From assembly GCF_002073975.1 (NCBI RefSeq), contig NZ_CP020384.1, positions 248,001 through 312,000 of the forward strand: a stretch of DNA of 64,000 nt. The letters are read 5' to 3'. The stretch is from Rhodovulum sp. MB263 (GTDB taxonomy: Bacteria; Pseudomonadota; Alphaproteobacteria; Rhodobacterales; Rhodobacteraceae). A model generated the notes under the pieces. The model was given only the letters and a program-made list of their open reading frames with translations. It ran no database searches and was not told the DNA's origin. A program made the translations under genes and the position numbers. This document shows positions 33,327 through 48,345 of the stretch, piece after piece; the stretch's first letter is position 1; the number at the start of each line of letters is the position of its first letter.

Positions 33327-33796
33327 GCGCGCGCTTTCGGAGGGCGGACCCGGGATCCGCACGGTCGGACGGAAGATACAGCCTAGCACGGATCGCCCGG
33401 CCGCGCATCCTTCGCCGGTGCGCGGCAGTGTCTCGGTCCGGGGCCCGGGACGAGGACCGTCGCCGCCAGCATCGGGCCGGAGCAGGCCCGGACGCCGCGA
33501 CAGGGTTGCCTTCGGGTGCCGGGCGTTGCGATCCCCGCCCCGGCGCCTTAAGGCCGCAGGCGGGCGGTTGCTGCATAAAGGCCACCGTTCGGGATCGGGT
33601 CCGGCCTCCAGGATTGACAGTTTGCATTCCATGGCTAGGTTCTCCTCATGGTCACGCATGAGCTCTTTTTCCGGTTTCTGCTTCTGAACCGCCCGGGTCC
33701 CCGGGCGGTCTGCGCTTAGGCGCGTCTTCGACCTTCCGGGGCTTTCTCACATCCTTGAATTGAGAATGCGGCCTTCGCCGCCCTCGGAGACACATC
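33327..33796. other. Intergenic region with a perfect hairpin
   Basis: 470 bp between the divergent coiled-coil gene and the first Rnk-like gene, with no supported ORF. It contains the perfect 10-bp dyad ACCGCCCGGG/CCCGGGCGGT at 33688–33709 (2-nt loop). This is about 90 bp before the Rnk-like start, so it could be a terminator or a regulatory hairpin; no U-tract follows. Confidence 0.5.
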
Positions 33797-34264
33797 ATGA
33801 CCATCACCAGGATCACGCATCTGCCTCCTGGCAGTGACTTTCGGGAGCTGTTCCCGCGCTCCTCTGTCGAGACCGGTTTTCTTCTCATGGCTGCAGACCG
33901 GCTGGGCATCGAACGCCTGCTTCGCCATGACGGCACCAGGAATGCGGCAAATCCCGCGCTTCTGAACGGGTTCCTGCGCCACAAGCTGAGGATCTCGCGC
34001 GCGGCTCCCGAGCCGGCACCGCCCGGGCTTGTCGTCGCCGGTTGCCATGTCACCTACATGATCAGCGGCGAGGGCGCACGCTCGGGCCTGCTGACCATCA
34101 GCCCGGTGCCGGGGCCGGGGCATCTTTCCATTGCGTCGCTTCTCGGCGCGACCCTGATGGGGATGCGGAAGCTGCAGAAGGTTCCGCTCTTGCGGGATGA
34201 CGGCCGGATCGAGACGGTCGTCGTGCTGGATGTCGGCCTGCCGCCGGGTCGCCACGCGGCCTGA
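33797..34264 (+). CDS. Diverged Rnk/GreA C-terminal-like protein
   Basis: 155 residues. The C-terminal 70 or so residues (from GCHVTYMISGEGARSG through SIASLLGATLMGM to RIETVVVLDV) follow the beta-rich pattern of the GreA/GreB C-terminal domain. They align with the next gene's VTYRDESTGQEK, VSVLTPIGIALIGLAEGASL and VLTVLRV, though the usual S-x-x-x-P-x-G-x-A-L-x-G core is degraded. The N-terminal region is unlike the neighbour. It probably belongs to the Rnk family of polymerase secondary-channel regulators, but this rests on eye alignment with one neighbour. Confidence 0.5.
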   Translation: MTITRITHLPPGSDFRELFPRSSVETGFLLMAADRLGIERLLRHDGTRNAANPALLNGFLRHKLRISRAAPEPAPPGLVVAGCHVTYMISGEGARSGLLTISPVPGPGHLSIASLLGATLMGMRKLQKVPLLRDDGRIETVVVLDVGLPPGRHAA

Positions 34265-34270
34265 GCGCCC

Positions 34271-34333
34271 TTCCGCCACCGGCGTACCGAGTAATCGCCG
34301 TTTCACGACATATCAGCGCCCTCAGTGGCGGAA
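34271..34333. promoter_or_regulatory. Inverted repeat around the leader of the Rnk-like gene
   Basis: TTCCGCCAC (34271–34279) and GTGGCGGAA (34325–34333) are perfect 9-nt complements flanking 45 nt. The right arm abuts the ribosome-binding site (AAAGGAAAG) of the gene starting at 34345, so folding of the leader could affect its translation. Position and pairing are seen; function is inferred. Confidence 0.4.
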
Positions 34334-34344
34334 AGGAAAGCTCA

Positions 34345-34788
34345 ATGACCGAGCAACATACCCCCTCACGCGGCACCGGGCGGCGGCCCAGGGTCGTCAT
34401 CTCTGCCGACAGCCTGGACAGGCTCGAAGCTCTTGCGCAGGGCGCGATCCAGCGCAACCCCGAGCTGGCCGACCGGCTGCTCGGCGAGCTTGGCCGGGCC
34501 CGTATCGTTCCCGTCGCGAAACTGCCCCCGGACGTGGTGGCGATCGGCCGCGCGGTCACCTATCGCGACGAATCGACCGGTCAGGAGAAGACGGTCACGC
34601 CGGTCTTTCCCGAGGCGGCCGACATCTCCAGTGGCCGGGTCTCGGTCCTGACGCCGATCGGGATCGCGCTGATCGGCCTGGCCGAGGGGGCATCGCTGCC
34701 CTGGGATACCAGGGACGGAAAGCGGCGGGTGCTGACGGTGCTCCGGGTCGCGCCGGAAGAGGTCGCCGAGGGGCTGGCGGCAGGATGA
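34345..34788 (+). CDS. Rnk-like regulator (GreA/GreB C-terminal domain)
   Basis: 147 residues. The N-terminal part VVISADSLDRLEALAQGAIQ with RNPELADRLLGELGRA resembles the short helical N-domain of Rnk (regulator of nucleoside diphosphate kinase). The C-terminal domain has VTPVFPEAADISSGRVSVLT, then PIGIALIGLAEGASLPWD, the conserved GreA/Rnk FKBP-like core. Rnk binds RNA polymerase near the secondary channel but lacks the cleavage-stimulating coiled coil. It sits 80 bp after a diverged relative on the same strand. Confidence 0.75.
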   Translation: MTEQHTPSRGTGRRPRVVISADSLDRLEALAQGAIQRNPELADRLLGELGRARIVPVAKLPPDVVAIGRAVTYRDESTGQEKTVTPVFPEAADISSGRVSVLTPIGIALIGLAEGASLPWDTRDGKRRVLTVLRVAPEEVAEGLAAG

Positions 34789-34929
34789 TCCGCTGTTCCC
34801 GAGGGCTGGCCGAGGCCCATGACCGGCCCGGAAGGGGTCGCGCGATGCGTTGACGACGCCAGGAGGCTCCTTCCGGGACATCGACTGCCAATGCTCTGGC
34901 GTCCTTACCTCCCATCGAAAGAGGCTCTC

Positions 34930-35154
34930 ATGAACCGTCCCCTTCCTCCTGTCTGCCCGTCCTGCAAGGCACCGCTTCCCCGCGCGGCCGCACATCGCTG
35001 CCCCAGCTGCCGGCACGTCCTTGACGGCGGGCCCTTTCTCATCCGGGTTTCCTGCCGCCGCTGCGGCGCGGCCGTCGAGCGCCGCGCCGGCGCCTCAGCG
35101 ACCTGCCTCCGATGCCGGTCCACGCGTCCCTCCCGGCTTCTGCAACAGGGCTGA
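34930..35154 (+). CDS. Zinc-ribbon microprotein
   Basis: 74 residues with three Cys pairs: CPSCKAPLP, CPSCRHVLDG and CRRCG, plus CLRC near the C-terminus, so one or two zinc ribbons can be formed. ATG at 34930 after GAAAGAGG. The frame extends upstream without Cys or homology. Function unknown; many such proteins bind nucleic acid or assist assembly of larger complexes. Confidence 0.6.
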   Translation: MNRPLPPVCPSCKAPLPRAAAHRCPSCRHVLDGGPFLIRVSCRRCGAAVERRAGASATCLRCRSTRPSRLLQQG

Positions 35155-35502
35155 CCAGAGGGGGCCGGCCGGTTTTCCGGCGGCCGCTCCGGCCGTCGGC
35201 GGGCTGGCCGGCACGCCATTCGCGCCGCCCGATTGCAGGGCGGCGCGGTATGTTTCGGCCTGTCCTGGATGATTGGCTTCATGCGGAATTCCGGGGCTCG
35301 AAATGGCATCGGAGCGCTGTTGCGCGGTGAGTCGCAGCGGCGCTTTCCTTTGCCCGACGGGTATTCCCGGGCGTCTTTCGGCGTGGTCCTGGGGTGGCCC
35401 TGCATGGAGCGGATCGTGCCGGATATGAGCCAGTCTTCCGACACGCGCCGCGCCTCGTTCCGCGGCAAGCGGCCCCATCCTGCATGATCCGCTTCAATGA
35501 GG
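35155..35502. other. Region left of attL, partly similar to the element's right end
   Basis: No intact gene. Three patches match, in order, the DNA just left of attR: AGCGCTGTTGCGCGG (35313) vs AGCGCCGTTGCGGGG (45275); CGCAGCGGCG plus a T-rich tail (35333 vs 45296); TCGTTCCGCGGCAAGC (35455) vs TCGTTCCGCTGCAAGC (45385). The last is exactly 48 bp before the repeat on both sides. It is either the ancestral serC upstream region or the leftover right end of an older related element. Confidence 0.55.
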
Positions 35503-35564
35503 CTTGCTGTTTTCTCTGGGGAAGCGTATGTCCGGCGGTGGGACACCCCTCCCAACGAGGGGCG
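35503..35564. repeat. attL: direct repeat, truncated copy of the serC leader
   Basis: 62 bp, matching 45433–45495 at all but one substitution (35514 C vs T) and one missing C in a C-run. It contains the hairpin CCCCTC-CCAAC-GAGGGG (35546–35562). It lacks the downstream ribosome-binding-site stem present at serC, so it is a decapitated leader left by integration. Confidence 0.85.
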
Positions 35565-35591
35565 CTGTCATTTCTATTTTCTCCTTCTTTT

Positions 35592-36596
35592 TCAAATGGC
35601 TGATAGCTTCTTGCTCGTTTCTTGCACCGTTTTTGCACCGAAAAGCACATTGGTGACGCTCGGGTCTTTCATCGCGTGAGCGTAGGTGCGCAGCACCGTT
35701 GTTGCGTCCTTCCATCCGCCCATATCCGCCACGGTCTTCACGTCGATACCGGCCTGCAGCATGGAAGTGGCAAAGCCGTGCCGACAGCAGTGCGGTGTAA
35801 GGCGCTCGATCTTCGCCCGCTTGCAAACATTGTTCCAAGGCCCCCGAACGCTGCCCCTCCCGGCGTAGCCGAACACGGGCTCATCCGGATTCCGGTTGCT
35901 AGGAATATTCGCTAGCGAGACCACAACTTCGGGCGGCAGATGTGCGATGCGCTTCCAAGGTGTCGGCTTGAACAGGTGCAACTCGACCCTTGCCGCGCTG
36001 AGGTCAACATAGCGCCAAGTCAGGTTGCATGCCTCCCCAACCCTCGCCGCCGTGCCGAACATGAACAGGCAGAGCGCGCCAAGATGCGCGAGCCCGTCTT
36101 CCTCGGCTTGTGACGAGAAGGCGCGCACCCACTCCAACGTTGCTGGCGTCTTCACCTCGGGCGTTTCGGTGTAGCGTTTCACCGAAATGCGCTGGCACCA
36201 TCCGAACCCCGCCGCGTGGTTTATTGCAGCCTGCGTTGGCTTGATCACCTGCCGGTTCCAAGTCGGCTCGTTCGCATTTGGGTATATTTTCTTGGCCGCT
36301 TGCCTGATCAACTCCGGTGTCACGTCTTCAACGAGAGTGTCTTTCCAGTGCTCCGCCAGCTTGAGAAGAAACCGTGCGGGCTTATCCGCGTCCAAATATG
36401 CCGTGAAGACTTGCGCCATGGTCAACCCGGCCCCCGGCCCATCGAAACGACGTTGCCACGCTTGGGCTTCGGTTTCCGCTTTGATCCGCTCCGCGATTTT
36501 TCGGTCAGTCGTTTTTGTAGACTGATAAAACTTCCTTCCGGCAACAGTCCCTCGGACGTACCAGGCGCCGTTGCGCTGGAACAGCTTGAGCGACAT
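35592..36596 (-). CDS. Tyrosine-type site-specific integrase
   Basis: 334 residues. The catalytic set of the phage integrase family is visible: Arg in FGTAARVGEACNL (R185), a Lys in the beta-hairpin (HLFKPTPWK), H-x-x-R in TPHCCRHGFATSML (H269, R272), Trp in MGGWKD in place of the second His (W295), and the Tyr nucleophile in VLRTYAHAMK (Y305). An N-terminal SAM-like core-binding domain precedes it. It lies 27 bp inside attL and would catalyse integration into the serC leader. ATG at 36596 has GGAGG six bases upstream. Confidence 0.95.
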   Translation of the reverse strand: MSLKLFQRNGAWYVRGTVAGRKFYQSTKTTDRKIAERIKAETEAQAWQRRFDGPGAGLTMAQVFTAYLDADKPARFLLKLAEHWKDTLVEDVTPELIRQAAKKIYPNANEPTWNRQVIKPTQAAINHAAGFGWCQRISVKRYTETPEVKTPATLEWVRAFSSQAEEDGLAHLGALCLFMFGTAARVGEACNLTWRYVDLSAARVELHLFKPTPWKRIAHLPPEVVVSLANIPSNRNPDEPVFGYAGRGSVRGPWNNVCKRAKIERLTPHCCRHGFATSMLQAGIDVKTVADMGGWKDATTVLRTYAHAMKDPSVTNVLFGAKTVQETSKKLSAI

Positions 36597-36772
36597 TTCA
36601 TGGCCTCCGTGATCTTTTCGACATGCTCCGGAAAGAGGATCATCTTTTGGCCCAGCTTGGCAAACGCGCCAAGCGCCCGCGCCTCGCCCTTCATGGTCCT
36701 CTCCGACACACCGAAATGCGCCGCCAAATCGGCGGGCGTGGTGTAGTCAGGGAAGAGCACGGGCGAAGTCAT
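36422..36772 (-). CDS. HTH DNA-binding protein, excisionase-like
   Basis: 116 residues. The N-terminal half (YTTPADLAAHFGVSERTMKG through KMILFPEHVEKITEAMK) is a winged-helix/MerR-like HTH of the kind found next to phage integrases as excisionase or directionality factor. The basic C-terminal tail (KRKPKPKRG) is in a different frame over the first 175 nt of the integrase gene, an unusually long overlap. ATG at 36772 overlaps the stop of the preceding 22-codon ORF (TGATG). Confidence 0.65.
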   Translation of the reverse strand: MTSPVLFPDYTTPADLAAHFGVSERTMKGEARALGAFAKLGQKMILFPEHVEKITEAMKCRSSCSSATAPGTSEGLLPEGSFISLQKRLTEKSRSGSKRKPKPKRGNVVSMGRGPG

Positions 36773-36840
36773 CAATCGTCGCTCTCCCCGCTTTCAGCGA
36801 GATATTTGCGGATTGTGGCGGGGCGGCGTACCATCGTCAT
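36772..36840 (-). CDS. 22-residue micro-ORF in regulatory gene chain
   Basis: Encodes MTMVRRPATIRKYLAESGES plus DD. Its ATG overlaps the stop of the 49-residue gene (ATGA) and its stop overlaps the ATG of the HTH gene (TGATG). It is therefore likely at least a translational coupling link; whether the peptide has a function is unknown. Confidence 0.4.
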   Translation of the reverse strand: MTMVRRPATIRKYLAESGESDD

Positions 36841-36986
36841 GCCTCCCCCAAATCGAGCGCGATTACGGCAATCTTGCCCGTGCGCGGGTCGATCTCGCCC
36901 CAACCCATCGGGATTTCGGCGCCGCAGCAGGCTTTGAGCACGCGCGCCACGTCTGCTTGGGTGAAGCTGGTCGGTTTGCAGGCCAT
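36837..36986 (-). CDS. Small phage-type hypothetical protein
   Basis: 49 residues, MACKPTSFTQADVARVLKAC and then an acidic beta-rich end (IDPRTGKIAVIALDLGEA). The pattern of an F-T-Q-A-D-[LV]-x-R-[AV] helix followed by two strands resembles small proteins frequently found beside integrases in Rhodobacterales prophages. ATG at 36986 has a strong ribosome-binding site (AAGGAGAACTGC). Function unknown. Confidence 0.6.
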   Translation of the reverse strand: MACKPTSFTQADVARVLKACCGAEIPMGWGEIDPRTGKIAVIALDLGEA

Positions 36987-37035
36987 GTGCAGTTCTCCTT
37001 GCTGCGTTTCTATGGCGGAGCGAAGAGTGCGCCGG

Positions 37036-37515
37036 TCAGACGTTGCTGTTCGGGTTTTCCATCGCGTAGCCGCCCGCATGAAGGCGCTTGAGCAGGCGCG
37101 AGAAGATCGCGCTATAATCAACGACGATGTAGGCTCCGGCGTCGGCCCCTTCCGAAATCAGCTTGCCAAGCGTGGCGCCCACATTGAGCGACCCGTAGGC
37201 GATTTCCATGACGAGATCGTTCCCTTTTCGGCTGGCGCCAACGAAGTAGGGCGCGGCGTTGCTTTCGATGATCTCCGCCAGCATCTGGACGGCAAAGGAA
37301 CAGGCCGAAGAGGCAACGTCCTGATTTCCTGTCCCGCCCGAGACCTCGGCGAAGACCGCTACCGAAAACAGCTCGGACAGCGTGAAGCGGTGCCAGCCCT
37401 CGCTTGCCCCGAGGTCGAAGAACCCCTTGCGACGCCAGCTCTGCACGGTGTTGAGGTTGGTTTCGGTCAGTGAGGCGACTTCGGAAACCGTGAAGCGCTG
37501 ATTGGTGAATTCCAT
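37036..37515 (-). CDS. MerR-like HTH regulator of the element
   Basis: 159 residues. N-terminal HTH: RFTVSEVASLTETNLNTVQS, then WRRKGFFDLGASEGWHRFTL, a MerR-type recognition helix and wing. The remaining 100 residues are a predicted alpha/beta effector or dimerisation domain with no clear relative. ATG at 37515 chosen because the HTH begins there. Palindromic sites just upstream (37536–37572) suggest autoregulation. Confidence 0.65.
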   Translation of the reverse strand: MEFTNQRFTVSEVASLTETNLNTVQSWRRKGFFDLGASEGWHRFTLSELFSVAVFAEVSGGTGNQDVASSACSFAVQMLAEIIESNAAPYFVGASRKGNDLVMEIAYGSLNVGATLGKLISEGADAGAYIVVDYSAIFSRLLKRLHAGGYAMENPNSNV

Positions 37516-37535
37516 TTTTTTGATCTCCAGATCTC

Positions 37536-37572
37536 GATACATGTATCCAGGTACATGATTTCGATACCCGTC
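37536..37572. promoter_or_regulatory. Putative operator palindromes upstream of the MerR-like gene
   Basis: GATACATGTATC at 37536–37547 is a perfect 12-bp palindrome, followed by GGTACATGATTTCGATACC, whose ends (GGTA/TACC) are also inverted. A related CATGATTT box recurs about 45 bp further upstream (37604–37611). Placement 20 bp upstream of the regulator's start suggests repressor binding; not tested. Confidence 0.5.
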
Positions 37573-37647
37573 TAAGGACTCGCAGTCAAGATGTGTGTTA
37601 CCGCACATGATTTACCCATACGGGCAGCGCCAATGACCAAACGTTCC

Positions 37648-38010
37648 TCACCACGCCGACGGCGCGACCCCGACCAACAGGCGCGCTTCCTTCCAGATCA
37701 TGCTGGTCTCCCAGTCTGCGCCGCACTTTCCGCACACGGTTTCGACGATCACCTTGGCTGCGAAGTCGGCAGCACAGGTGCTTGGAAGAGACATCATCTC
37801 ATCCTCGATCTTGTTCGAATGCCGGTAGAAGAGCAGGTCCAGCTCTGCGTCTTCGCCGCTTCCAGTCGCATTGCAGACATGCCGCCTGGCGGCATCGAGG
37901 ATCGCACGATGCCGATGGAAGAGCCTCAGGATCTGCGATTGGTCGGCTTCGGCCTTCGTCATCGTGGGCACAGCCAGCGTTGCGGCGGAGAAGAAAGTCC
38001 GACGTTTCAT
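37648..38010 (-). CDS. Element-encoded protein with Tat-like N-terminus
   Basis: 120 residues. MKRRTFFSAATLAVP begins like a short twin-Arg or Sec signal, followed by a helical region with four Cys in total (VCNATG, STCAAD, VCGKCG). Similar short 'MKRRTF' proteins occur in Rhodobacterales prophages, with no known function. Its ATG overlaps the stop of the upstream 67-residue gene (ATGA). Confidence 0.55.
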   Translation of the reverse strand: MKRRTFFSAATLAVPTMTKAEADQSQILRLFHRHRAILDAARRHVCNATGSGEDAELDLLFYRHSNKIEDEMMSLPSTCAADFAAKVIVETVCGKCGADWETSMIWKEARLLVGVAPSAW

Positions 38011-38210
38011 GCCCTCGCCTCCATCAGGCGGAGGGTGTGCCGCAGGGCCGTGCGCAGATAGCTGCGGGCCTCGCGCTCGCTCTGAGAGTATCGGCCCGGC
38101 CGCTCCGTCGCATCGAGAGCGAGGGCCAAGCAGTCGTGGATTTCATACAGGCGTGCAGCAGGCAAAGCCGTGACGGCTGCCGGAAACGGGTTCGGCATTC
38201 TGGGCTCCAT
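38007..38210 (-). CDS. Small hypothetical helical protein
   Basis: 67 residues (or 63 if starting at the ATG at 38198). Helical, Arg-rich C-terminus (SYLRTALRHTLRLMEARA). Translationally coupled with the following gene by an ATGA overlap and divergent from the XRE regulator across a probable operator region. No recognised domain. Confidence 0.5.
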   Translation of the reverse strand: MEPRMPNPFPAAVTALPAARLYEIHDCLALALDATERPGRYSQSEREARSYLRTALRHTLRLMEARA

Positions 38211-38227
38211 TGATATGCGGTGGCGGT

Positions 38228-38277
38228 TTCGCTACAGTGTCCTCACGATAACAACCAAATCGCTACTGTAAAGCGAA
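38228..38277. promoter_or_regulatory. Probable XRE operator between divergent genes
   Basis: TCGCTACAGT (38229) is repeated as TCGCTACTGT (38260), and TTCGCTACAGT (38228) pairs with ACTGTAAAGCGAA (38265–38277) as an inverted repeat with a 2-nt offset. The sites lie between the divergent small gene (start 38210) and the XRE regulator (start 38298), the expected place for a switch operator. Confidence 0.5.
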
Positions 38278-38297
38278 TTCTACACGGTGACGCGAAA

Positions 38298-38519
38298 ATG
38301 ACACCTGCGCAGTGCCGAATGGCCCGGTCTGGTTTGTCTATGGGAGTGCGCGAGTTGGCAGAGGCCGCAGGCGTCTCAACCAACACGATTACGCGCCTAG
38401 AGAAGGGCGAGGCGCTGAAACCGCGGACGCTTGAAGCGATTCAATCTGCGTTTGAGGCCGCCGGTGTCGAGTTCATTCCCGAGAACGGCGGCGGGCCAGG
38501 AGTTCGGCTTAAGAAGTGA
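38298..38519 (+). CDS. Small XRE-family transcriptional regulator
   Basis: 73 residues, a single lambda-repressor-like HTH: CRMARSGLSMGVRELAEAAG then VSTNTITRLEKGEALKPRTL, followed by a short C-terminus (AFEAAGVEFIPENGGGPGVR), the standard layout of short phage and plasmid XRE proteins. It is the only plus-strand gene in the element and converges on the Abi_C gene. The start at 38298 excludes an N-terminal extension without homology. Confidence 0.82.
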   Translation: MTPAQCRMARSGLSMGVRELAEAAGVSTNTITRLEKGEALKPRTLEAIQSAFEAAGVEFIPENGGGPGVRLKK

Positions 38520-38624
38520 ACAATCAGCCCGAAGCAGACGACCGCTTCCCCCTTCCGTCTTACTTGGCGGCCGTTGGTACGGGCGGAAAGTGGTCATTCG
38601 CTGCACACCCTCAAAGGCCGTCGC

Positions 38625-39521
38625 TTACCTTTGAAGATCGTCGGCCTTCGGTAGCTGACGCGCTGGAAATTTACGTTGCCATGTCTCAATGAGAAAGAGC
38701 GCGGCAGTGCTCGCCGCATGGATCGACAAACGGGCGATCCGCGCGTCGACACGCGCGAAGCCCTTTTCGCGACCATGGGCATCGCCGCCATGTGTTCGGA
38801 GAGCCCCTACACCGCATACCACCGTGGTCAGTCCGGAAAGAACCTGCCTCACATCATTTGCGATTAGGGGATCAATATCTGAACGATCAGGCGACAGTCC
38901 AAGAGGCTGCTTCACGGCATTATAGAGCCCCTGCACATCCTTCTTGGCAGGAAGCGGCTCGCCAAGTTCGACCAAAATCGACCGGCACACGCTTTCGACC
39001 GTGCTGCACGCGGCGGTGACAGCATCCTCCGGATCGGTGGCAGCACTTGCGAGGGCGCGTTCCAGATCACGGCTCACCGTGTCGAAGTCGATCACCTCGG
39101 ATAGCCCGGCAAGCTCTGAGAGAACCGGCACGCCTTTGCCTGCTTCGACCAGGCGCATCCGCCCTCCCTGCTGCTGAATCTCGAAGCCGTCAAAGCGCAA
39201 TGCGCGGTTAAGGTGGTCGAGTACGGCTGTATGGCGTTCTGGCTCATGGATGAAGTCGCGAGGATCGGCCGCTGCCTCAATGATACGCGGGAGCACATCC
39301 TCGGGCTGGAAACTATTGTTGATTTTGATGAGGCACTGGACCAGGGATGGCAGGCGGGAGCCGTCCACGCTGAAATCGACGTTGCAGGCGCGCATGAACT
39401 TCTCGATCTGCGGGCCACTACGATAAAGCCCAATAGGTGGCGGAGCATCCGCATAAGCAGCCCCGCCGCTGATGACATCGGCCAAGGCGTCTATGCTTTG
39501 GGGTGACAACGGGAAGGACAT
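38625..39521 (-). CDS. Abi_C (HEPN-like) abortive-infection family protein
   Basis: 298 residues. The C-terminal ~120 residues (VTAACSTVESVCRSILVELG, then VLSGLTTVVCGVGALRTHGG and DAHGREKGFARVDARIARL) match the Abi_C pattern of abortive-infection proteins. This domain is HEPN-like, with an R-x6-H motif (R242, H249) as a candidate RNase centre. The N-terminal ~150 residues are helical and not recognised; they may sense the trigger. Expressed with the HEPN gene, whose stop lies 15 bp upstream. Lower G+C than the host suggests recent acquisition. Confidence 0.7.
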   Translation of the reverse strand: MSFPLSPQSIDALADVISGGAAYADAPPPIGLYRSGPQIEKFMRACNVDFSVDGSRLPSLVQCLIKINNSFQPEDVLPRIIEAAADPRDFIHEPERHTAVLDHLNRALRFDGFEIQQQGGRMRLVEAGKGVPVLSELAGLSEVIDFDTVSRDLERALASAATDPEDAVTAACSTVESVCRSILVELGEPLPAKKDVQGLYNAVKQPLGLSPDRSDIDPLIANDVRQVLSGLTTVVCGVGALRTHGGDAHGREKGFARVDARIARLSIHAASTAALFLIETWQRKFPARQLPKADDLQR

Positions 39522-39536
39522 GTTTCTGTGGCTATT

Positions 39537-40232
39537 CTACCGGACGATTTCGTATGCAGCGGCTCGGAGCAGACCAGCAAGCACAGTTGCGCGAGTCCCC
39601 CCGTTCATCTGGGATTTGAGATAGTGTCCAGCTTGCTGCACACGATTGACACCGCGGCGCAGCCCCGTGGGATGCAGCGCCCCAAGCGCGAGGACGTCAT
39701 TGAGCCGATCAAGCGAGCTTTTGCTCCTATGAGCAAGATTGTTCCTGAAGGCGATTGTTAGATCAATGATCGCTTTTTGCTGAGCAATTAGGCGAGTGAA
39801 GCGTTCGACATGGGCAGCAATAAGCCATTGTTTCGCTCTGCCTTCGATAGCAGCATAGGTCGGGAAGGAGGTGTTTCGTCCCGAGGGGTCGAGCACGGTT
39901 TTCAGTTCATCTTTGGTGAGGTGGCGTTGCGACTTAAACTCAGCGAAGCTGTCGAAAGCAGCGGCAGCCTTTTGATTTGATTGCAGGGCCTCTCGAACGC
40001 TCGTTTCCAAGTGCTGCATGACCCGTGAGCAGTCGCGGTTTGCATATGCGAAAATCAAGTCGTTGGCGAACCCTTCGAACAGCACACCCAGAGTGAGTGC
40101 GTAGTTCTCCGTGGCGATTTTGCGGTCCTGGACGGCAGTCAGAGCGCCCCAAGAGCTATTGTAGAACCGAGCCTGCTCAGCGAGTTGGTCTGCAAAGTCA
40201 CTCCAGACGCCTTCAGGATCAATCTTCCGCAT
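39537..40232 (-). CDS. HEPN-superfamily protein (RNxxxH), probable defence partner
   Basis: 231 residues from ATG 40232, with the strong ribosome-binding site GAGGAAAC. Largely helical. FRNNLAHRSKSSLDRL near residues 162–177 holds the RNxxxH motif (R163, N164, H168) of HEPN ribonucleases. The rest (YALTLGVLFEGFANDLIFAY; HVERFTRLIAQQKAIIDLTI) fits the HEPN helical bundle. It probably acts with the downstream Abi_C protein in one operon. RNase activity and role in phage defence are inferred from the motif and context only. Confidence 0.65.
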   Translation of the reverse strand: MRKIDPEGVWSDFADQLAEQARFYNSSWGALTAVQDRKIATENYALTLGVLFEGFANDLIFAYANRDCSRVMQHLETSVREALQSNQKAAAAFDSFAEFKSQRHLTKDELKTVLDPSGRNTSFPTYAAIEGRAKQWLIAAHVERFTRLIAQQKAIIDLTIAFRNNLAHRSKSSLDRLNDVLALGALHPTGLRRGVNRVQQAGHYLKSQMNGGTRATVLAGLLRAAAYEIVR

Positions 40233-40375
40233 GTTTCCTCGCACACAAGCTCTCAATTCGCGGCAAGGTCGCCTTGCGGAGGCGCTGATTGGGCAGCATG
40301 CCCTACCGAGATCCGAAAATGGCAAAGGCTCGGGCGACACTCAGGGGCAATTAACCCTGCCTTTTGAATAGACAG

Positions 40376-40403
40376 ATAATACCCACATTTAGGCTTGCTG
40401 CAA
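40376..40403 (-). promoter_or_regulatory. Candidate promoter of the HEPN–Abi_C operon
   Basis: On the minus strand TTGCAG (40403–40398) and TATTAT (40381–40376) are separated by 16 bp, a plausible sigma-70 promoter about 145 bp upstream of the HEPN start. The -10 matches five of six consensus bases. Confidence 0.4.
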
Positions 40404-40727
40404 CTGCGGCATCTACTCTCTGCCTCAAGGTCTGCTCAGGGCCGAGGTGTATCGTCGGCGCGAGGCGCGACGGCCTGATCGCAGTGTCCGATTTTCACAT
40501 CGGCTGATCGAAGACAGGCCGGGGCGTTTCCGCACCCCGGCCCGATGCCCGCCGCGCCCTGACGAAAACCCAGGCCGCGGGCTGTCGGGGTTCTTCGCCC
40601 ACCATGCGGGACACTCGCCGACTTGCCCCAATCGCGTTTGCGGACCCCTCCCGCCAGGTGCGATCCCCCCTGCCGCGTCAGAGCCGCCGCACGCGGCTCT
40701 GAGCATCCTTTTGGGCCGATTGCCGGA
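40404..40727. other. Non-coding stretch after the capsid gene
   Basis: No gene seen. It contains the dyads GGCCGGGG/CCCCGGCC (40517–40542) and CAGAGCCGC/GCGGCTCTG (40679–40701), and separates the structural genes from the defence operon. Confidence 0.5.
40679..40701 (-). terminator. Hairpin downstream of the capsid gene
   Basis: Perfect 9-bp stem CAGAGCCGC/GCGGCTCTG with a 5-nt loop, 27 bp after the capsid stop at 40728. No U-run follows on the minus strand, so termination strength is uncertain. Confidence 0.5.
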
Positions 40728-42284
40728 TCACGCGCCGGGGTTCTTGTACCAGGCGCGGTGATCGACGAACCCGGCCCCGAAATCGAGGCGCACCTTGAAC
40801 TCGCTGGCATCGGTCTCGAAGCCGTCGCGGGTGAAGATCTGCGGTCCCGAAGCCCCATCCAGATAGGCGTGCTGCAGCGCATCGGGACGGCCCGGCAAGG
40901 CGGCGATGTACCAGGCCGCCGGGTCCGTCAGGTTGGCATCGGCCAGAACCGTCAGCTTCTGCTGGAACGGGTTCACATCGTCGGCCGACGCGGCCGAGAT
41001 TTCGGCCACCAGCCGTTCGGCCTGCGTTTCCAGCTCGGGCGGCACGATCAACAGCGCGGGGTCCACCCGGATCGCCTCGCCCGCCAGCCCCTTCTGACGG
41101 CGCATCGCCGTGCGCGCGAGGGACAGCGAGGCAATGGAGAGGGTCGCGCCGGTCTCGGCCAGGTTGCCGTGATCGGCATGGAAGAGGGCCTTGCCGTCCG
41201 ACATAGCCGGACCCGTGCCGCCATTCGCCTCGAGGAGCCCGGCGAAGATGCGCGCTTCGGTGAGCGCCGCGCCCTGACCGAACATGCGGGCGCTCTGCTC
41301 GAACGCGCCGAGGTCGTCGTTCACGATGGCCTGCCGGGTCAGGGTGAAGATCTTGCCATAGGTCTCCAGAACGAAGGCCTCGCCCGCGTCGGTGATCTGG
41401 CCCTGCCCGAACTCGCCGTTTTCCAGCACCTTCGCCAGCTCGACACCGCCCGAGACGCGGACGGTGTTGATCGGGCGGAAGTCCGGGGCCGAAACTTCGC
41501 GGGACGCTTTCTTGATTTGCGACTCGGCAGCCTCGTAGGCCGTCAGCAATACCTTGTTCGAGGCAATCGCCAGGGCGGCCCTGAAATCGTCGGTGCCCAT
41601 CGCACCGCCCCACATCATGGCATGGCGCCGCCCCCGGACGTAGCCGCCGCCGGCCGAAATCTTGGCAATGTCGTCCAGCCGCATGGCCACGAACTCCCGA
41701 CCATGGGTCGGCACATGCCCGGCTTGCATCCGCGCCAGGAGGCCGTCCGCCATCGCGTCGGCCCGAGACGGGGTATCCTCAACAAAGGCCAATGCGCTGG
41801 GGCGAACCGGCGGCTCATTGCGGGCCATGAGGGCCATCGCCTCTTCCCCGGCGACCCGTGCGATTTCCTGCGTGATCGCCGCCGGGTCCGTTCCCGGAAC
41901 GGCAATACCGGCCATCACCGCGCGTTTCGCGATCGACATCAGCGCGGCCTGGTTCAGCAGCTCCCCCCGGACGAACGGCACGGACGCCTCCCGGAAGCTG
42001 GCCAGACCGGCGGCGACGGCCTCGGCCTGCGCCGCGCCGACGCCGGTTTCGGCCATCAGGTCCGCGAACTCGGCCGAGAGCCCCGCCTTGAACGCCACGC
42101 CACGCATCTGCGCCAAGTGGCGGGCAGAGGGCTGGCCATTCGGGACGGCCCCGGCCGACCCGCTGGCGGGCGCACCCGAGGGGGCGCCTTCGGCCCGTGC
42201 AATGCCAGCGCCGCGCAGACCGATCCGCTTGGGATGCTGCGCGGGGTTGAGGGCGACGGCGCCCCGGATTTCTTCAGCGATCAT
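40728..42284 (-). CDS. Phage major capsid protein (Mu gpT-like / protease-capsid fusion family)
   Basis: 518 residues. The C-terminal ~300 residues, with VSGGVELAKVLENGEFGQGQ, SDGKALFHADHGNLAETGA, RVDPALLIVPPELETQAERL and the end FVDHRAWYKNPGA, follow the pattern of Mu-like major head proteins (gpT) and related capsid fusions. The N-terminal 200 residues are Ala-rich and helical, perhaps a scaffold-like segment removed on maturation. ATG at 42284 with GAGGATCACC; the frame upstream to 42500 has no homology. It is the main structural gene of the element; its protease lies 1.9 kb upstream. Confidence 0.78.
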   Translation of the reverse strand: MIAEEIRGAVALNPAQHPKRIGLRGAGIARAEGAPSGAPASGSAGAVPNGQPSARHLAQMRGVAFKAGLSAEFADLMAETGVGAAQAEAVAAGLASFREASVPFVRGELLNQAALMSIAKRAVMAGIAVPGTDPAAITQEIARVAGEEAMALMARNEPPVRPSALAFVEDTPSRADAMADGLLARMQAGHVPTHGREFVAMRLDDIAKISAGGGYVRGRRHAMMWGGAMGTDDFRAALAIASNKVLLTAYEAAESQIKKASREVSAPDFRPINTVRVSGGVELAKVLENGEFGQGQITDAGEAFVLETYGKIFTLTRQAIVNDDLGAFEQSARMFGQGAALTEARIFAGLLEANGGTGPAMSDGKALFHADHGNLAETGATLSIASLSLARTAMRRQKGLAGEAIRVDPALLIVPPELETQAERLVAEISAASADDVNPFQQKLTVLADANLTDPAAWYIAALPGRPDALQHAYLDGASGPQIFTRDGFETDASEFKVRLDFGAGFVDHRAWYKNPGA

Positions 42285-42478
42285 GGTGATCCTCGCTTTC
42301 GATGCGGGCGAGACGGTCGCCCAGCCGGTCCCCTCGGGACAACAACAACCCGAACCGTCAAGGTTCTGGTTTTTCAGTGACTTGAAGGCATCGGGGTGCG
42401 AATTACCCCCGTGCAGACCCGTGCCGGGAAGGACCCGCCACCGGCTTTTGAAGTGAAGAAGGGTGAAACCGACGGTCA

Positions 42479-42697
42479 TCAGATCGCACCGTCCGGCCAT
42501 CTGACCGCTTTGCAGCGGAGGCCACTGGTGCAGCGCCTGCCTTTGGGTGTTTCCCAGGTCAGCACCGCGCTTTCTCTGCCATCGACCCGCGTGTAGGGCG
42601 CGATCGCCACAAGCTTGAGCAGGCGTCCCCGGTAGTACCGGATCGTCGTTCCAAGCGACGGCGCCTCATCGAACTGGATGGGATATTGATCCACCAT
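42479..42697 (-). CDS. Small beta-rich phage-type protein
   Basis: 72 residues beginning MVDQYPIQFDEAPSLGTTIR. Probable strands (LLKLVAIAPYTRV, SAVLTWETPKGRRC) and two Cys. Located between the presumptive origin and the capsid gene, preceded by GGGGGGGCGTG. The function is unknown; position suggests a regulatory or head-related role. Confidence 0.5.
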   Translation of the reverse strand: MVDQYPIQFDEAPSLGTTIRYYRGRLLKLVAIAPYTRVDGRESAVLTWETPKGRRCTSGLRCKAVRWPDGAI

Positions 42698-42720
42698 CAC
42701 GCGCCCCCCCGAGACTGACC

Positions 42721-42984
42721 GGGACAAACAGTCCGGGTCCGGGCGTGGTCCGGGGAGGGAAGGTATATATATTTATATATATACCTTTCCCCCTCCTGTC
42801 CCGTCCCACCATACGCCGTGCGGCCTTTGCCCCGACCAACCGGGACAAGAGATTGGTTGGCGTATTGTCCTGCATTTTCATTGTCTTGGCGGAAGTCGGG
42901 ACAAGCGGGACAAGCCGGGACAAAGCCCATTGTCCCACCACACCGGGACAAGGCGGGACATGCCGGGACAAGAGACGTTGTCCC
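42721..42984. repeat. GGGACAA repeat array (iteron-like)
   Basis: Nine exact copies of GGGACAA: seven on the plus strand (42721, 42842, 42898, 42907, 42917, 42945, 42965), two inverted as TTGTCCC (42930, 42978), plus a GGGACAT variant at 42955. In the core the copies lie 9–10 bp apart (42898/42907/42917; 42945/42955/42965), one helical turn. It is directly downstream of the RepA-like helicase gene. The pattern suggests binding sites for a replication initiator. Confidence 0.65.
42757..42790. repeat. Long AT-rich hairpin beside the repeat array
   Basis: A 13-bp perfect inverted repeat (AAGGTATATATAT against ATATATATACCTT, 42760–42787) with a 2-nt TT centre, extendable with G·T and G-C pairs to about 42757–42790. 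This TA-tract is exceptional in such GC-rich DNA and could be the duplex-unwinding element of an origin or a very strong bidirectional terminator. Confidence 0.65.
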
Positions 42985-42986
42985 GG

Positions 42987-44111
42987 TCATTGCACCACCC
43001 ACACCAGGTCGTCCCGCACGACGATTTCCCGCGCGGTTTCAAGCTCTTCCCTGCACCGGTTGAACGCCCGCTTGCGCGTGTCCCGGTTCTCGGAGGCGGA
43101 CAGCTCGCCTTCGGCCATGCAGGCATCGCGCCACAGATCGAAGCTCACGCCAGCGTGGCTCGGATACTGCGGCTTGCGGTGAATCTCGCCACGGTCCTCG
43201 ATCAGCCTGTTGAGGAGCGACAGGGCCTTTCGCGCCGCTTCGCTCACGCCCGCGCGTCCCGCCTCTGCGGGCACCGCCGGGTCAACCAGACAGGTCGTGA
43301 CGGGATCGCCGTCCTGGTCGAGGCCAAGCTCGACCTGCCGGAGCTGATAGCAGAAGCGATAGCCGGTCGGCCCGTCGCGCTGCTTTGTCACTTCGGCGGT
43401 GATCTGCCCCAGGTCGTCCCGGGACAGTTCGATTTCGGTGTCGATTGCGGCACGAAGGGACGAATGCCCCCGCGCCCCGCGCCCGGTGTCCTTGCCGGTA
43501 TGGTGCACCAGCATGACATGCGCCCCGGTGACGCGCCGGATCAGGTCGAGATTGCGCACCAGGTCGGCAATATCGGGCGCCGCGTTCTCATCCCGGCCCC
43601 CCATCACCCGCGCCATCGTGTCGATGACGATCATGTCGAAACCAGCGCCGCCCACGGCCGAGAGGTGTTGCAGCACTTCGGTCAGCGGCCCGGCCGCGCT
43701 GTCAGTTCCGGTCAGCGTGATCGGGACCGACAGCACGAAGAATTCGGGATCATCGAGCGCCGCCACCCGGTTCGCGAAGCCGCCGCCGCCCTCGGCCGCG
43801 ATATAGAGGACGCGGCCCTTGTTCACCCGCCGGTCTCCCCAGCTGCGCCCCTTGGCGACATGGTGCGCCAGATCCAGGGCCAGGAACGACTTTCCGCTGT
43901 TGGACGGGCCGTAGAGGACGGACAGGGCCGACTGGTCGAGCCAGCCCTTGACCAGATACGGGCGGGCCAGGCAGGGCGACAGATCCGCCGCCCAGGTCGT
44001 GGCCCCCAGCAAGGACAGGGCGCGGGGCTTCAAGCGCGCACGATTGCCATAAAGATGGCTGACCGCGCCCTCGGAAGCGCCTTCGGTCCCTTTTGTCGGA
44101 TCTTTGGTCAT
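42987..44111 (-). CDS. RepA-like AAA/RecA-fold replicative helicase
   Basis: 374 residues. Walker A LYGPSNSGKSFLALDLAHHV (GPSNSGKS 68–75), Walker B FDMIVIDTMARVMGG, and a sensor region MLVHHTGKDTGRGARGHSSL place it with RepA/AAA_25 helicases of plasmids and phages. The C-terminal 100 residues look like a winged-helix extension (ARKALSLLNRLIEDRGEIHR). It probably unwinds DNA at the adjacent repeat array. ATG at 44111; stop 26 bp after the ClpP-like gene, same operon. Confidence 0.82.
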   Translation of the reverse strand: MTKDPTKGTEGASEGAVSHLYGNRARLKPRALSLLGATTWAADLSPCLARPYLVKGWLDQSALSVLYGPSNSGKSFLALDLAHHVAKGRSWGDRRVNKGRVLYIAAEGGGGFANRVAALDDPEFFVLSVPITLTGTDSAAGPLTEVLQHLSAVGGAGFDMIVIDTMARVMGGRDENAAPDIADLVRNLDLIRRVTGAHVMLVHHTGKDTGRGARGHSSLRAAIDTEIELSRDDLGQITAEVTKQRDGPTGYRFCYQLRQVELGLDQDGDPVTTCLVDPAVPAEAGRAGVSEAARKALSLLNRLIEDRGEIHRKPQYPSHAGVSFDLWRDACMAEGELSASENRDTRKRAFNRCREELETAREIVVRDDLVWVVQ

Positions 44112-44136
44112 GGCCGCTCGTTCCTCTGCGACGGCC

Positions 44137-44739
44137 TCAGGCCGCGTTTCCAGTCCAGCCATTCCGCACCGCGAGCCGCACCAGCTCGGGCGGCGGGGCC
44201 TTGAAGCGCGTGTAGTCGAACGCCGCCACCGGCTCGGATTGGAAAGCCTCCTCGTCGCCAAAGAGGCGGTCGCAGAAGTTGAGCGCCAAAGCCTCGTCGG
44301 CGGTCATCCAGGTTTCCGCCGCCATCCAGGCGCGGATACGCTCGACCGGATGGCCCGTGGCCCGGGCGTAGGCTTGCGCATAGGTCTCGGAAATCTTGTC
44401 CAGCATGCCCGCCTCGCGGCGCAGGTCGTCTGCGGTTCCCCAGGCGAGATTGGACGGCTCATGGATCATCAGATGCGCCGCGCGGTGCATGGCGATCTCG
44501 GCCGCCCCCATCACCAGGAGCGACGCGGCAGACGCCGCCACGCCCAAGACTTCCACCCGCACCTGCCCATGCTGTTCGAGCTGCGCCAGGATCGCGGCCC
44601 CATCCGAGGCAATCCCGCCATAGGAGTTGACGGCGATCACCACCGGCACGCCCGCATTGTCGTCCAGGAAGGCGCCGATCCGGGGCGGGGTATTCTCGCC
44701 CTCGCCAATCGGCCCGTAGATATGAAGGGTTTCGGTCAT
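44137..44739 (-). CDS. ClpP-related head maturation protease
   Basis: 200 residues, ClpP/crotonase fold. The nucleophile is in LGVAASAASLLVMGA (Ser70), the catalytic His in AHLMIHEPSNLAWG (H93), and the C-terminal ETWMTADEALALNFCDRLFG is the usual motif near the third residue. Such proteases mature phage capsids, which fits the capsid gene in the same element. Its ATG overlaps the stop of a 31-codon ORF (ATGA). Confidence 0.87.
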   Translation of the reverse strand: MTETLHIYGPIGEGENTPPRIGAFLDDNAGVPVVIAVNSYGGIASDGAAILAQLEQHGQVRVEVLGVAASAASLLVMGAAEIAMHRAAHLMIHEPSNLAWGTADDLRREAGMLDKISETYAQAYARATGHPVERIRAWMAAETWMTADEALALNFCDRLFGDEEAFQSEPVAAFDYTRFKAPPPELVRLAVRNGWTGNAA

Positions 44740-44831
44740 TCTGACACCTGAGCTTCGGGGGGCTGTTGCGGTTGCGCCGAGGGAGCGGCGGGGCTCGACC
44801 GCAGGCGTTCCGGATCGGCAAGCCGTCTCAT
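44736..44831 (-). CDS. 31-residue micro-ORF between two element genes
   Basis: MRRLADPERLRSSPAAPSAQ then PQQPPEAQVSE. Pro/Gln/Ala-rich, likely disordered. Its ATG overlaps the preceding gene's stop and its stop overlaps the protease ATG, both by ATGA. The double coupling argues it is translated; product function unknown. Confidence 0.5.
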   Translation of the reverse strand: MRRLADPERLRSSPAAPSAQPQQPPEAQVSE

Positions 44832-45385
44832 GCCGCCACCTCGATTTCCGAGATATGCCGAAGGAACGCGGTCTGATCGCGCGGCGCCATCGCCTCGAAG
44901 GAGGCCAGCGCGAAGGCTTTCAGCTCGGCCCGATTGGCGAGCGAGGCCCAGAACCGGGCTTCCTCCATCCCGCGCAGGAACGGAGGCATGGGCGCCCCGG
45001 CCGCGCGCAGCACCGTGGCCGCCGTCATTTCGGCCTGCTCGGGCTCCAGCGACCGCAACGCCGCATAGGCCAGCGAGGCCCGCTCGCGCGCCGTGAGCCT
45101 TGCGGCCCATACTGCCGAAGCCGCTGCCCAGGCGTCGAAGTCTTCCAGCGTCAGCGCCGCCGCCAGCATCCGAGAGGCGCGGTCGTGCGCGTCAGAGGCG
45201 TATTTCAGCGTTGCCGAGACACCGGCTTTCAAGCTAGAATGGCAGGGAAGTCGGAAGCCTTCACATGCATTTTCAGCGCCGTTGCGGGGACCATCCGCAG
45301 CGGCGTTTTCTTTGGCGCTGTCTCGGGACGGATGGGGAACAAACTGCACCGAATTTGCACGTGCAATCGGCATCCGTTCACGCAT
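44828..45385 (-). CDS. Element hypothetical protein at the attR end
   Basis: 185 residues if starting at ATG 45385 (alternative ATG 45373). The C-terminal ~120 residues are helical and Ala-rich (LTLEDFDAWAAASAVWAARL; ELKAFALASFEAMAPRDQTA) and resemble small phage proteins found before ClpP-type proteases; no known function. The N-terminal 60 residues are poorly structured, so a later start is possible. It lies 48 bp inside attR and begins the chain 44828–44137. Confidence 0.5.
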   Translation of the reverse strand: MRERMPIARANSVQFVPHPSRDSAKENAAADGPRNGAENACEGFRLPCHSSLKAGVSATLKYASDAHDRASRMLAAALTLEDFDAWAAASAVWAARLTARERASLAYAALRSLEPEQAEMTAATVLRAAGAPMPPFLRGMEEARFWASLANRAELKAFALASFEAMAPRDQTAFLRHISEIEVAA

Positions 45386-45432
45386 CGTTCCGCTGCAAGC
45401 CGTAAGAATCTGAATGGCAGACCCTTTTGATA

Positions 45433-45495
45433 CTTGCTGTTTTTTCTGGGGAAGCGTATGTCCGGCGGTGGGACACCCCTCCCCAACGAGGGGCG
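45433..45495. repeat. attR: direct repeat inside the serC leader
   Basis: 63-bp copy of attL, here joined to the intact serC upstream region. It includes the hairpin CCCCTC-CCCAAC-GAGGGG (45476–45493). It also contains TTGCTG and, 17 bp later, TATGTC, a weak promoter-like pair lying wholly within the repeat. Confidence 0.85.
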
Positions 45496-45517: not shown

Positions 45518-46672
<1,155 letters not shown>

Positions 46673-46749: not shown

Positions 46750-48345
46750 ATGGCCCCCAAGGTTCTCGTTTCCGACAAGCTTTCCGAAACCGCCGTCCAG
46801 ATCTTCCGCGACCGCGGCATCGAGGTCGACTTCCAGCCCGATCTCGGCAAGGATAAGGACAAGCTGCTCGAGGTGATCGGCCAGTATGACGGCCTCGCCA
46901 TCCGCTCTGCCACCAAGGTGACCGAGAAGATCCTCGAAGCCGCCACCAATCTCAAGGTGGTCGGCCGTGCCGGCATCGGCGTCGACAATGTCGACATCCC
47001 GGCCGCCTCGAAGAAGGGCGTGATCGTGATGAACACGCCTTTCGGCAACTCGATCACCACGGCCGAACATGCCATCTCTATGATGATGGCCGTCGCCCGG
47101 CAGATCCCCGAGGCCAATGCCTCGACCCATGCCGGCAAATGGGAGAAATCCCGCTTCATGGGCGTCGAGCTCACCGGCAAGACGCTCGGCCTGATCGGCT
47201 GCGGCAATATCGGCTCGATCGTGGCCGACCGCGCCGTCGGCCTGAAGATGAAGGTTCTGGCCTATGACCCCTTCCTGTCGGAAGAGCGCGCCGACAAGCT
47301 GGGCGTGACTAAGGTCGAGCTGGAGGACCTGTTGCCGAAGGCCGATTTCATCACGCTGCACGTGCCGATGACCGAGAAGACGGCCAACATCCTCTCGGCC
47401 GAGAACCTCGGCAAGACCAAGAAGGGCGTGCGCATCGTCAACTGTGCCCGCGGCGGTCTCGTCGACGAGACGGCGCTGGCCGAGCTGCTGCAATCGGGTC
47501 ATGTCGCGGGCGCGGCCTTCGACGTCTTCGCCGTGGAGCCGGCCAAGGACAACGTGCTGTTCAACCTGCCCAACGTGGTCTGCACCCCGCATCTGGGCGC
47601 CTCGACCACCGAGGCCCAGGAAAACGTGGCCCTGCAGGTCGCCGAGCAGATGTCCGACTATCTGCTGACCGGCGCGGTCACCAATGCGATCAACATGCCC
47701 TCGATCACCGCCGAAGAGGCGAAGGTCATGGGCCCCTGGATCAAGCTCGCGGGCCATATCGGCGCCTTCATCGGCCAGATGACCGACGAACCGGTCAAGG
47801 CGATCAACGTGCTCTATGACGGCTTCGCCGCCGAGATGAACACCGCCGCCCTGAATGCCGCCGCCATTGCCGGGGTGATGAAGCAGGCCAATCCGACCGT
47901 GAACATGGTCTCGGCCCCGATCGTCGCCAAGGAGCGTGGCATCGCGATCTCGACCACGACCCAGGGCAAGTCGGGCACCTTCGACGGCTATGTCAAGATG
48001 ACCGTCGTCACCGCCAAGCGCGAACGTTCGATCGCCGGCACCGTGTTCTCGGACGGCAAGCCGCGCTTCATCCAGATCAAGGGCATCAATATCGATGCCG
48101 AGATCGGCGAGCACATGCTCTACACCACCAACCGCGACGTGCCGGGCATCATCGGTGCGCTGGGCGCGGCGATGGGCGCGCATGGGGTCAATATCGCGAA
48201 CTTCACGCTCGGCCGCACCAAGGTCGGCGAGGATGCCATCGCGCTGATGTATCTCGACCAGCCGATGCCCGCCCATGTGGTCGAGGAGCTCGAGAAGACC
48301 GGCCTGTTCCAGCAGGTGCGCCCGCTGGAATTCGAGATCGGCTGA
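46750..48345 (+). CDS. serA: D-3-phosphoglycerate dehydrogenase
   Basis: 531 residues, first committed step of serine synthesis. NAD-binding region LGLIGCGNIGSIVADRA, catalytic Arg/Glu/His in IVNCARGGLVDETAL and VCTPHLGASTTEAQENVA. The long form has a central regulatory (ASB) domain and a C-terminal ACT domain (VPGIIGALGAAMGAHGVNIA). ATG at 46750 behind ACGAGGAGTG. In an operon with serC, terminated by the hairpin at 48368–48398. Confidence 0.96.
   Translation: MAPKVLVSDKLSETAVQIFRDRGIEVDFQPDLGKDKDKLLEVIGQYDGLAIRSATKVTEKILEAATNLKVVGRAGIGVDNVDIPAASKKGVIVMNTPFGNSITTAEHAISMMMAVARQIPEANASTHAGKWEKSRFMGVELTGKTLGLIGCGNIGSIVADRAVGLKMKVLAYDPFLSEERADKLGVTKVELEDLLPKADFITLHVPMTEKTANILSAENLGKTKKGVRIVNCARGGLVDETALAELLQSGHVAGAAFDVFAVEPAKDNVLFNLPNVVCTPHLGASTTEAQENVALQVAEQMSDYLLTGAVTNAINMPSITAEEAKVMGPWIKLAGHIGAFIGQMTDEPVKAINVLYDGFAAEMNTAALNAAAIAGVMKQANPTVNMVSAPIVAKERGIAISTTTQGKSGTFDGYVKMTVVTAKRERSIAGTVFSDGKPRFIQIKGINIDAEIGEHMLYTTNRDVPGIIGALGAAMGAHGVNIANFTLGRTKVGEDAIALMYLDQPMPAHVVEELEKTGLFQQVRPLEFEIG

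Follow-up and report, generated by a model that had tools for sequence, protein, structure and literature searches.

A family of phage-like elements of Alphaproteobacteria inserts exactly at the start of the serC mRNA and appears to bring a replacement promoter for this gene, which functions in serine synthesis. The member analysed here lies in a 64,000-nucleotide stretch of the Rhodovulum sp. MB263 genome (NZ_CP020384.1, positions 248,001 to 312,000; the whole stretch is called the window, and its own numbering is used). Direct repeats at 35503–35564 and 45433–45495, both on the plus strand, bracket an element of 9.9 kb. They are 97% identical over 62/63 bp, they are the sole two matches across the 4.16-Mb genome, and their cores lie 9,930 bp apart. 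An uninterrupted gene for a tyrosine integrase of 334 residues (35592–36596, minus strand; PF00589, E 1.9e-21) lies beside the left repeat. It contains the strings ARVGEA, HCCRH, GGWKD and RTYAH, which we take to be the catalytic R, H-R, W and Y, respectively. A first-pass annotation had described such repeats around a tyrosine integrase, together with phage-type genes mostly on the minus strand. Both observations were confirmed; the phage-type genes include those for a capsid protein, a ClpP-type protease and an AAA_25 ATPase. Its reading of the repeats as the attachment sites attL and attR is supported by relatives at the same core, by empty sites in the genus of Roseovarius pacificus (R. 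pacificus below) and by the integrase clade.

The right repeat (attR) overlaps the serC leader RNA (RF00517, 45466–45517, plus strand), which scores 72.6 bits, above the gathering cut-off, and leads on into serC (phosphoserine transaminase, 45518–46672, plus strand; NCBIfam NF002841 and TIGR01365, both over cut-off). The left repeat (attL) scores 35.0 bits, which is exactly the RF00517 cut-off; it keeps hairpin 1, with a loop one C short, and hairpin 2 is absent. The core in this short-loop form, GGGACACCCCTCCCAACGAGGG, occupies 35540–35561 on the plus strand. The first-pass annotation had named the leader RNA as the target, in place of a tRNA or tmRNA. The overlap with RF00517 agrees with this, and neither a tRNA nor a tmRNA was detected in the window by ARAGORN, but the repeats support a narrower target, namely the serC promoter and start site with leader hairpin 1 rather than the whole leader; the hairpin of the ribosome binding site (RBS) remains chromosomal. 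The repeat stops upstream of the serC start codon, so no new N-terminus is supplied. In the available portion of the study by Corbino and colleagues (PMC1273637), putative start sites with near-consensus promoters are placed immediately upstream of all examples of the serC motif, and the last hairpin is suggested to sequester the RBS. The motif is termed an orphan riboswitch candidate in an excerpt of PMC7266159.

The same site is occupied in the relatives of this integrase (G and L numbers below are our working labels). The same hairpin core adjoins every relative examined at about 50% identity or more whose integrase end is visible. Eight relatives with 59–89% identity were found in genome contigs, and the serC core lies just past the integrase C-terminus in all of them. 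Ten matches outside the window were found in 390 genomes of the order; the core is present in nine, those with about 50% identity or more, and the tenth, with 39% identity, lacks it. This comparison of flanks had been proposed beforehand, and it bore the proposal out. Eight of the nine core-bearing genomes have two RF00517 matches on one contig, 10.8–27.4 kb apart, counting G384 and G311, whose second copy is just below the cut-off; one of the nine matches, G281, looks like the same metagenome-assembled genome as L029. Further cases of the site are Pseudorhodobacter turbinis and the viral contigs L130, L132 and L134. The viral contig L129, with an integrase 89% identical, stops at the integrase, leaving the site out of view, and an integrase fragment in G013 likewise terminates at a diverged core. 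As an exact string, the short-loop core occurs in two of the 390 genomes (the window genome and G281), beside this integrase in both, and the reversed control in none; the exact string misses full-loop cores and other arm variants. Among 18 att pairs compared, 17 of the elements span 2.7–27.4 kb with varied cargo, and the pair of G013 is inverted, presumably through later rearrangement. No DNA match to the att region was found in phage records. Relatives of the integrase are held by 46 phage records, all below 60% identity (the best 44% among the matches listed), and by 24 plasmid records, where the best among the matches listed is P. turbinis with 54%.

The core itself varies. An arm variant, CCCTTC/GAAGGG, occurs in the cores of L025, L110, L113, L117 and eight further carriers; as a rule, both of its sides change jointly, and it co-occurs in chromosomes and in the elements that they carry. 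Departures from this paired change are the attL of G311 (GATGG) and the two unlike cores of G128. The viral contig L134 has a full core and an integrase 55% identical, and the viral contig L135 has a full core in a different context, with no relative of this integrase, SerB or SerC in the part examined.

In a tree of 23 integrases, drawn with a root for display only, the 19 rows at the serC site fall on one side of one branch (support 99/97). tRNA-like sequence was recognized by eye at the sites of three of the four outside rows (L161, L021 and L166), and the fourth record ends at the integrase. The Rfam tRNA model matches L166 at threshold and L161 below threshold, and L021 is not listed; next to the distant integrases, a complete tRNA was not detected by ARAGORN. 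The similarly shaped leader hairpin may have been adopted by the clade in place of tRNA anticodon hairpins.

The neighborhood of serC indicates what an empty site looks like. The left flank of the R. pacificus element was searched for in a sample of 60 congeneric genomes from a larger group. Of these, 59 gave a match, and the 30 loci returned include that of R. pacificus. Among the remaining 29, there are 21 in which serB and serC (gene names verified by NCBIfam) start 159–1206 bp apart, at most 344 bp in 20 of these 21, with a single native core. In R. pacificus, 17.4 kb lies between the two genes, and each end of this interval has a core. Among the eight loci that lack a serB-serC pair, two are cut off by the end of their contig, and no leader match was obtained for G126. 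The serC of G163, which has a promoter of the element type, is located on a different contig. In G128, serB adjoins a core whose right side is element-like, at a distance of 19 kb from serC. serB also flanks attL in seven of the eight genome-contig loci and in eight of the nine core-bearing loci of the order, one locus being common to both sets. Empty sites had been expected to hold about 62 bp of the repeat. They do exist in the genus of R. pacificus, but the att core is not 62 bp long: identical bases around the core extend over about 51 bp in the window repeat and over 23–33 bp in the other 17 att pairs.

The loop of hairpin 1 helps to locate the crossover. The long loop is present in all 18 attR cores and in all 35 single-copy serC sites. 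Ten attL cores of the nearer clade (the window, L022–L027, L029, L130 and L132) are one C shorter, and ten have the full loop (L028, G384, G364, G540, G224, G392, G249, G399, G311 and P. turbinis). In the ten short-loop cores, the loop must be element-derived, while the sequence upstream of attL varies by host; therefore, we infer that the crossover falls in the 5′ side of leader hairpin 1, the exact bases being approximate.

Promoter sequences were compared at 18 attR, 20 attL and 35 single-copy serC sites, with positions counted from the core. TTG at −36 and TA at −13 are present in all 35 single-copy sites. At attR, TTG is found in 18/18 and TA in 17/18. Both boxes are kept in 16 of the 20 attL sites; R. 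pacificus lost both, L023 lost TTG, and those of L029 and P. turbinis are displaced by one base. Over the upstream 60 nt, agreement is 0.63 among attR from different hosts and 0.43 among attL; the attR and attL within one genome agree at 0.48. When the labels were swapped within genomes, 0 of 5000 trials reached the attR/attL difference; with the window, G013 and L027 left out, 2 of 5000 did. Column conservation was calculated with 31 native sites (without L003, L005, L006 and L008) and 15 attL sites (without the window, G013, L027, L029 and P. turbinis); at attR, the box columns average 1.81 bits versus 1.07 in the spacer. A T-rich mark after the −35 box is present in 17/18 attR, 0/31 serB-adjacent native sites and 3/20 attL (the window, G013 and P. 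turbinis). The attL of R. pacificus resembles the native sites of its genus (mean 0.66) more than its attR does (0.38). In G128, serC has an element-type promoter, and a native-type promoter is kept beside serB, differing from that of a congener at 8/60 positions, three of them in the boxes (−36, −35 and −13). These comparisons suggest that the element brings a promoter and leaves the native one behind; the replacement promoter appears to stand in the native register and to be joined to serC at attR.

The G128 locus has further peculiarities. L126 near 5370 and L189, both of G128, hold a decayed left junction, made up of a promoter of native type whose boxes have changed and a core whose loop is shortened. 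In the island that extends toward serC, no copy of this integrase was detected, and an open reading frame (ORF) of 3970 residues takes up much of it.

We consider it very probable that integrases of this clade recombine the beginning of the serC transcription unit with the attP of the element, the crossover falling within the 5′ side of leader hairpin 1. At attR, the element-borne promoter would be joined to the 3′ part of the chromosomal leader, the RBS hairpin and serC, and the displaced native promoter would stay at attL, now facing the 3′ end of the integrase gene. The replacement promoter should keep serC-serA expressed although its start site is cut. The sequences compared show directly the site and its use by the clade, as well as the splitting of serB from serC and the shared attR promoters. 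Activity of the promoters and excision of the elements are presumed from them.

The window itself departs from the common pattern because both of its att sites bear element-type promoters. At attL, the boxes (35504–35532, plus strand) are TTGCTG at 35504–35509 and TATGTC at 35527–35532, at −36 and −13 from the core and aimed at the 3′ end of the integrase gene. The predicted serC promoter borne by the element (45434–45462, plus strand) has TTGCTG at 45434–45439 and TATGTC at 45457–45462, 17 nt apart. The repeat is unusually long since element-type promoters stand on both sides. Weaker similarity continues past it (81% over 117 bp, 35451–35564 versus 45381–45495), and the left flank at 35451–35502 (plus strand), which resembles the right end of the element, may be a relic of an earlier insertion. 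The right end (45283–45432, plus strand), presumably the P arm, is 88% similar to a stretch upstream of serC in G006. The left flank of the window is not serB, which is located 3.4 Mb away in contig coordinates. Among 16 genomes of the genus, serB lies at most 1.1 kb from the serC site in ten, each of which has a native-type promoter. The remaining six comprise G008, which is ambiguous, and five with an element-type promoter (G000, G004, G006, G013 and G015). The contig reaches 105 bp upstream of the single-copy site in G015, 3.6 kb in G006 and 23.6 kb in G004; since the contig ends are near in the first two, G004 alone is suited to reveal the loss of an element. A broken relative is carried by G013, in which the integrase fragment lies with an inverted att copy 44.5 kb from serC; an ORF beside the right end was read by eye as a transposase. 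This arrangement was probably produced by repeated insertion at one site, with promoters outlasting their elements and the long repeat arising from serial insertion.

Alternatively, the long repeat could reflect gene conversion between attL and attR, or a single insertion into a genome in which this promoter type was already present by descent. The 97% likeness of the two window promoters over 62 bp would fit either case, and we give this explanation a real but minor chance. The 81% similarity over 117 bp is instead what is expected of two diverged element ends, and of the six genus genomes in which serB is not adjacent, five (including G000 and G013) have element-type promoters, against none of the ten in which it is. 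A more radical explanation denies that the repeats are att sites and takes them to be copies of the serC upstream region, duplicated by chance or long ago, around a phage-like stretch. It draws on the similarity in the window extending beyond the repeat and on the fact that none of the 16 genus genomes shows this left flank at an empty site. It is extremely improbable, as the same core lies beside related integrases in many genomes with differing cargo and sizes, and serB and serC, adjacent in 21 of 29 related loci, are split by the element in R. pacificus. Chance repetition was rejected because the 97% pair is unique in the genome and the exact short-loop core was found in only 2 of 390 genomes, beside this integrase. 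The conserved sequence upstream of attR might also be an arm-binding region for integrase and excisionase, with incidental boxes and serC read from elsewhere. An attP arm is expected there, columns −60, −42, −27, −22 and −21 are strongly conserved too, and repeated CTGCA-like motifs were seen by eye. However, the boxes stand at the exact native distance (TTG and TA as counted above) with mean conservation above that of the spacer, and the native promoter is 2.7–27 kb distant once an element has inserted. We therefore regard the arm region as an unlikely full explanation.

Several observations weigh against insertion at the serC start with promoter replacement. A clean empty site for the left flank of the window (33526–35490) was not found in the 16 genus genomes; this flank adjoins an att copy solely in G013, which also carries element remnants, and its 78–79% matches in G003, G007 and G015 sit on contigs other than that of serC. 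The check for empty sites in relatives, proposed at the outset, thus succeeded for R. pacificus and failed for the window. In the genus of R. pacificus, three of the five genomes with serB and serC apart (G129, G115 and G146) have native-type promoters, so other events also separate the two genes. Half of the attL cores have the full loop, leaving ten that are informative on the crossover. The attR sequences share ancestry; hence, the 18 are not 18 independent cases. The attR of G364 lacks TA at −13, that of G384 lacks the T-rich mark, and the attL of P. turbinis has this mark, besides those of the window and G013. Non-box columns −60, −27, −22 and −21 of attR are conserved as fully as the boxes. 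Most of the stranded promoters keep their boxes, and two of the four misses are one-base shifts. One exact attP-like promoter string was absent from the viral contigs. The integrase tree has just four outside rows, which provide a weak basis: the branches of three are long, G393 and G053 are possibly joined falsely, and the inside row G311 is also long.

The minus strand carries the majority of the element genes. After the integrase gene come an ORF with weak excisionase similarity (36422–36775, minus strand; phrog_1840, E 0.0061), a family that also matches an ORF of the viral contig L132 (E 4.2e-6), and a small ORF without a family match (37036–37515, minus strand). An HTH_3 regulator (38298–38519, plus strand) was scanned as the ORF at 38220–38519. 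The gene for an Abi_C/AbiJ-like protein (38625–39521, minus strand) and the neighboring ORF without a match (39537–40232, minus strand) are possibly defence cargo (38625–40232). The major capsid protein (40728–42284, minus strand) matches Phage_capsid_4 and the C-terminal part of protease/capsid fusion models. It is followed by GGGACAA/TTGTCCC repeats with an AT-rich palindrome (42721–42984), a possible iteron origin. Nine of the 12 heptamers in the window cluster there, beside the stop of the repA-like gene, with the palindrome at about 42757–42790 among them; a comparable cluster follows the related gene in L124. The remaining genes, all on the minus strand, encode an AAA_25 ATPase resembling RepA (42987–44111), a ClpP-type head maturation (prohead) protease (44137–44739) and a right-end ORF of unassigned family (44828–45232). 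No terminase, portal or connector was recognized in 13 window ORFs, each compared with at least one library, two ORFs below 60 residues being unscanned. Beyond the element, serC is followed by serA (phosphoglycerate dehydrogenase, 46750–48345, plus strand; TIGR01327 over cut-off).

Cargo differs among the related elements. That of R. pacificus has head and tail genes. L132 has portal, protease, capsid, terminase, HNH and replication-initiation genes, with no tail family in its ten ORFs scanned, and L028 has capsid, protease and primase genes. The Lutimaribacter element carries plasmid-type genes, namely RepC-like, Mob_Pre (just over cut-off) and ParA-like ones. The genome of the window holds a second copy of much of the window cargo module, with 90–95% DNA identity (L124:4995–15943; G000:C1, about 890–901 kb), near a portal gene and flanked by two different tyrosine integrases. 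Since a relative of the cargo lies beside other integrases, cargo and integration module seem to be exchanged.

Capsid-forming phage-inducible chromosomal islands (PICIs) are phage satellites. The window element resembles them in its size of about 10 kb, integrase, small regulators, and capsid and protease genes, to which L132 adds terminase, portal and HNH. Unlike them, the window element lacks a recognized terminase or portal, the R. pacificus element has tail genes, and the Lutimaribacter element has plasmid-type genes. Assignment of the window element to the capsid-forming satellites was rejected: it has its own capsid and protease genes, but no terminase or portal was recognized. Tyrosine-integrase elements in tRNA genes restore the tRNA 3′ end. 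The serC elements share with them the integrase type, a hairpin-like inverted-repeat core and direct-repeat junctions, but restore the 5′ regulatory part of an mRNA gene instead. SXT, at prfC, and dusA-specific elements such as IMEVchUSA3 insert at the 5′ end of a host gene and supply a promoter, according to the available part of PMC8409611 (SXT as cited there). The serC elements are alike in 5′-end insertion and in the apparently element-derived promoter sequence joined to the target gene. The former cut inside the coding sequence and supply an N-terminus, whereas the serC elements cut the untranslated leader, leaving the protein unchanged and keeping the RBS hairpin.

The first-pass annotation knew of no described element with this target. 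None was found in the literature searched: the matches listed contain no report of serC or a leader RNA as such an integration site, subscription journals being thinly covered. The RF00517 family, to which the target leader belongs, is not linked to integration in these papers, and no paper on promoters outliving their element was found among them. According to the available part of PMC8224337, 35% of the better prophages in that study lie in tRNA genes; serC is not mentioned there. PMC12541379 and PMC4389210 (E. coli engineering) are, in the parts available, unrelated to serC integration. Promoter replacement by integrating elements is already known; the site in a cis-regulatory RNA leader and the surviving promoters appear new among the papers searched.

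An mRNA start site with a cis-regulatory RNA hairpin would join the known kinds of attachment site, with a clear way of sparing the host gene. The elements also amount to a natural experiment on an orphan riboswitch candidate, in which everything 5′ of hairpin 1, including the promoter, appears to have been swapped repeatedly while hairpin 2 was kept. The serB-serC split and the short-loop core are ready markers for finding such elements. Tentatively, with a chance somewhat short of even, we propose that the elements drive promoter turnover in the serC-serA operon and that the element promoter remains as the only one after the element is lost or broken. If so, each insertion would hand the operon an element promoter, and the stranded native promoter could decay. 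Genomes with a single att site and an element-type promoter (G004, G006 and G163) would be domesticated leftovers, G015 being uninformative because its contig ends 105 bp upstream, and the window would record at least two rounds of insertion. The serC-serA operon would then be a case of gene promoters inherited from mobile elements.

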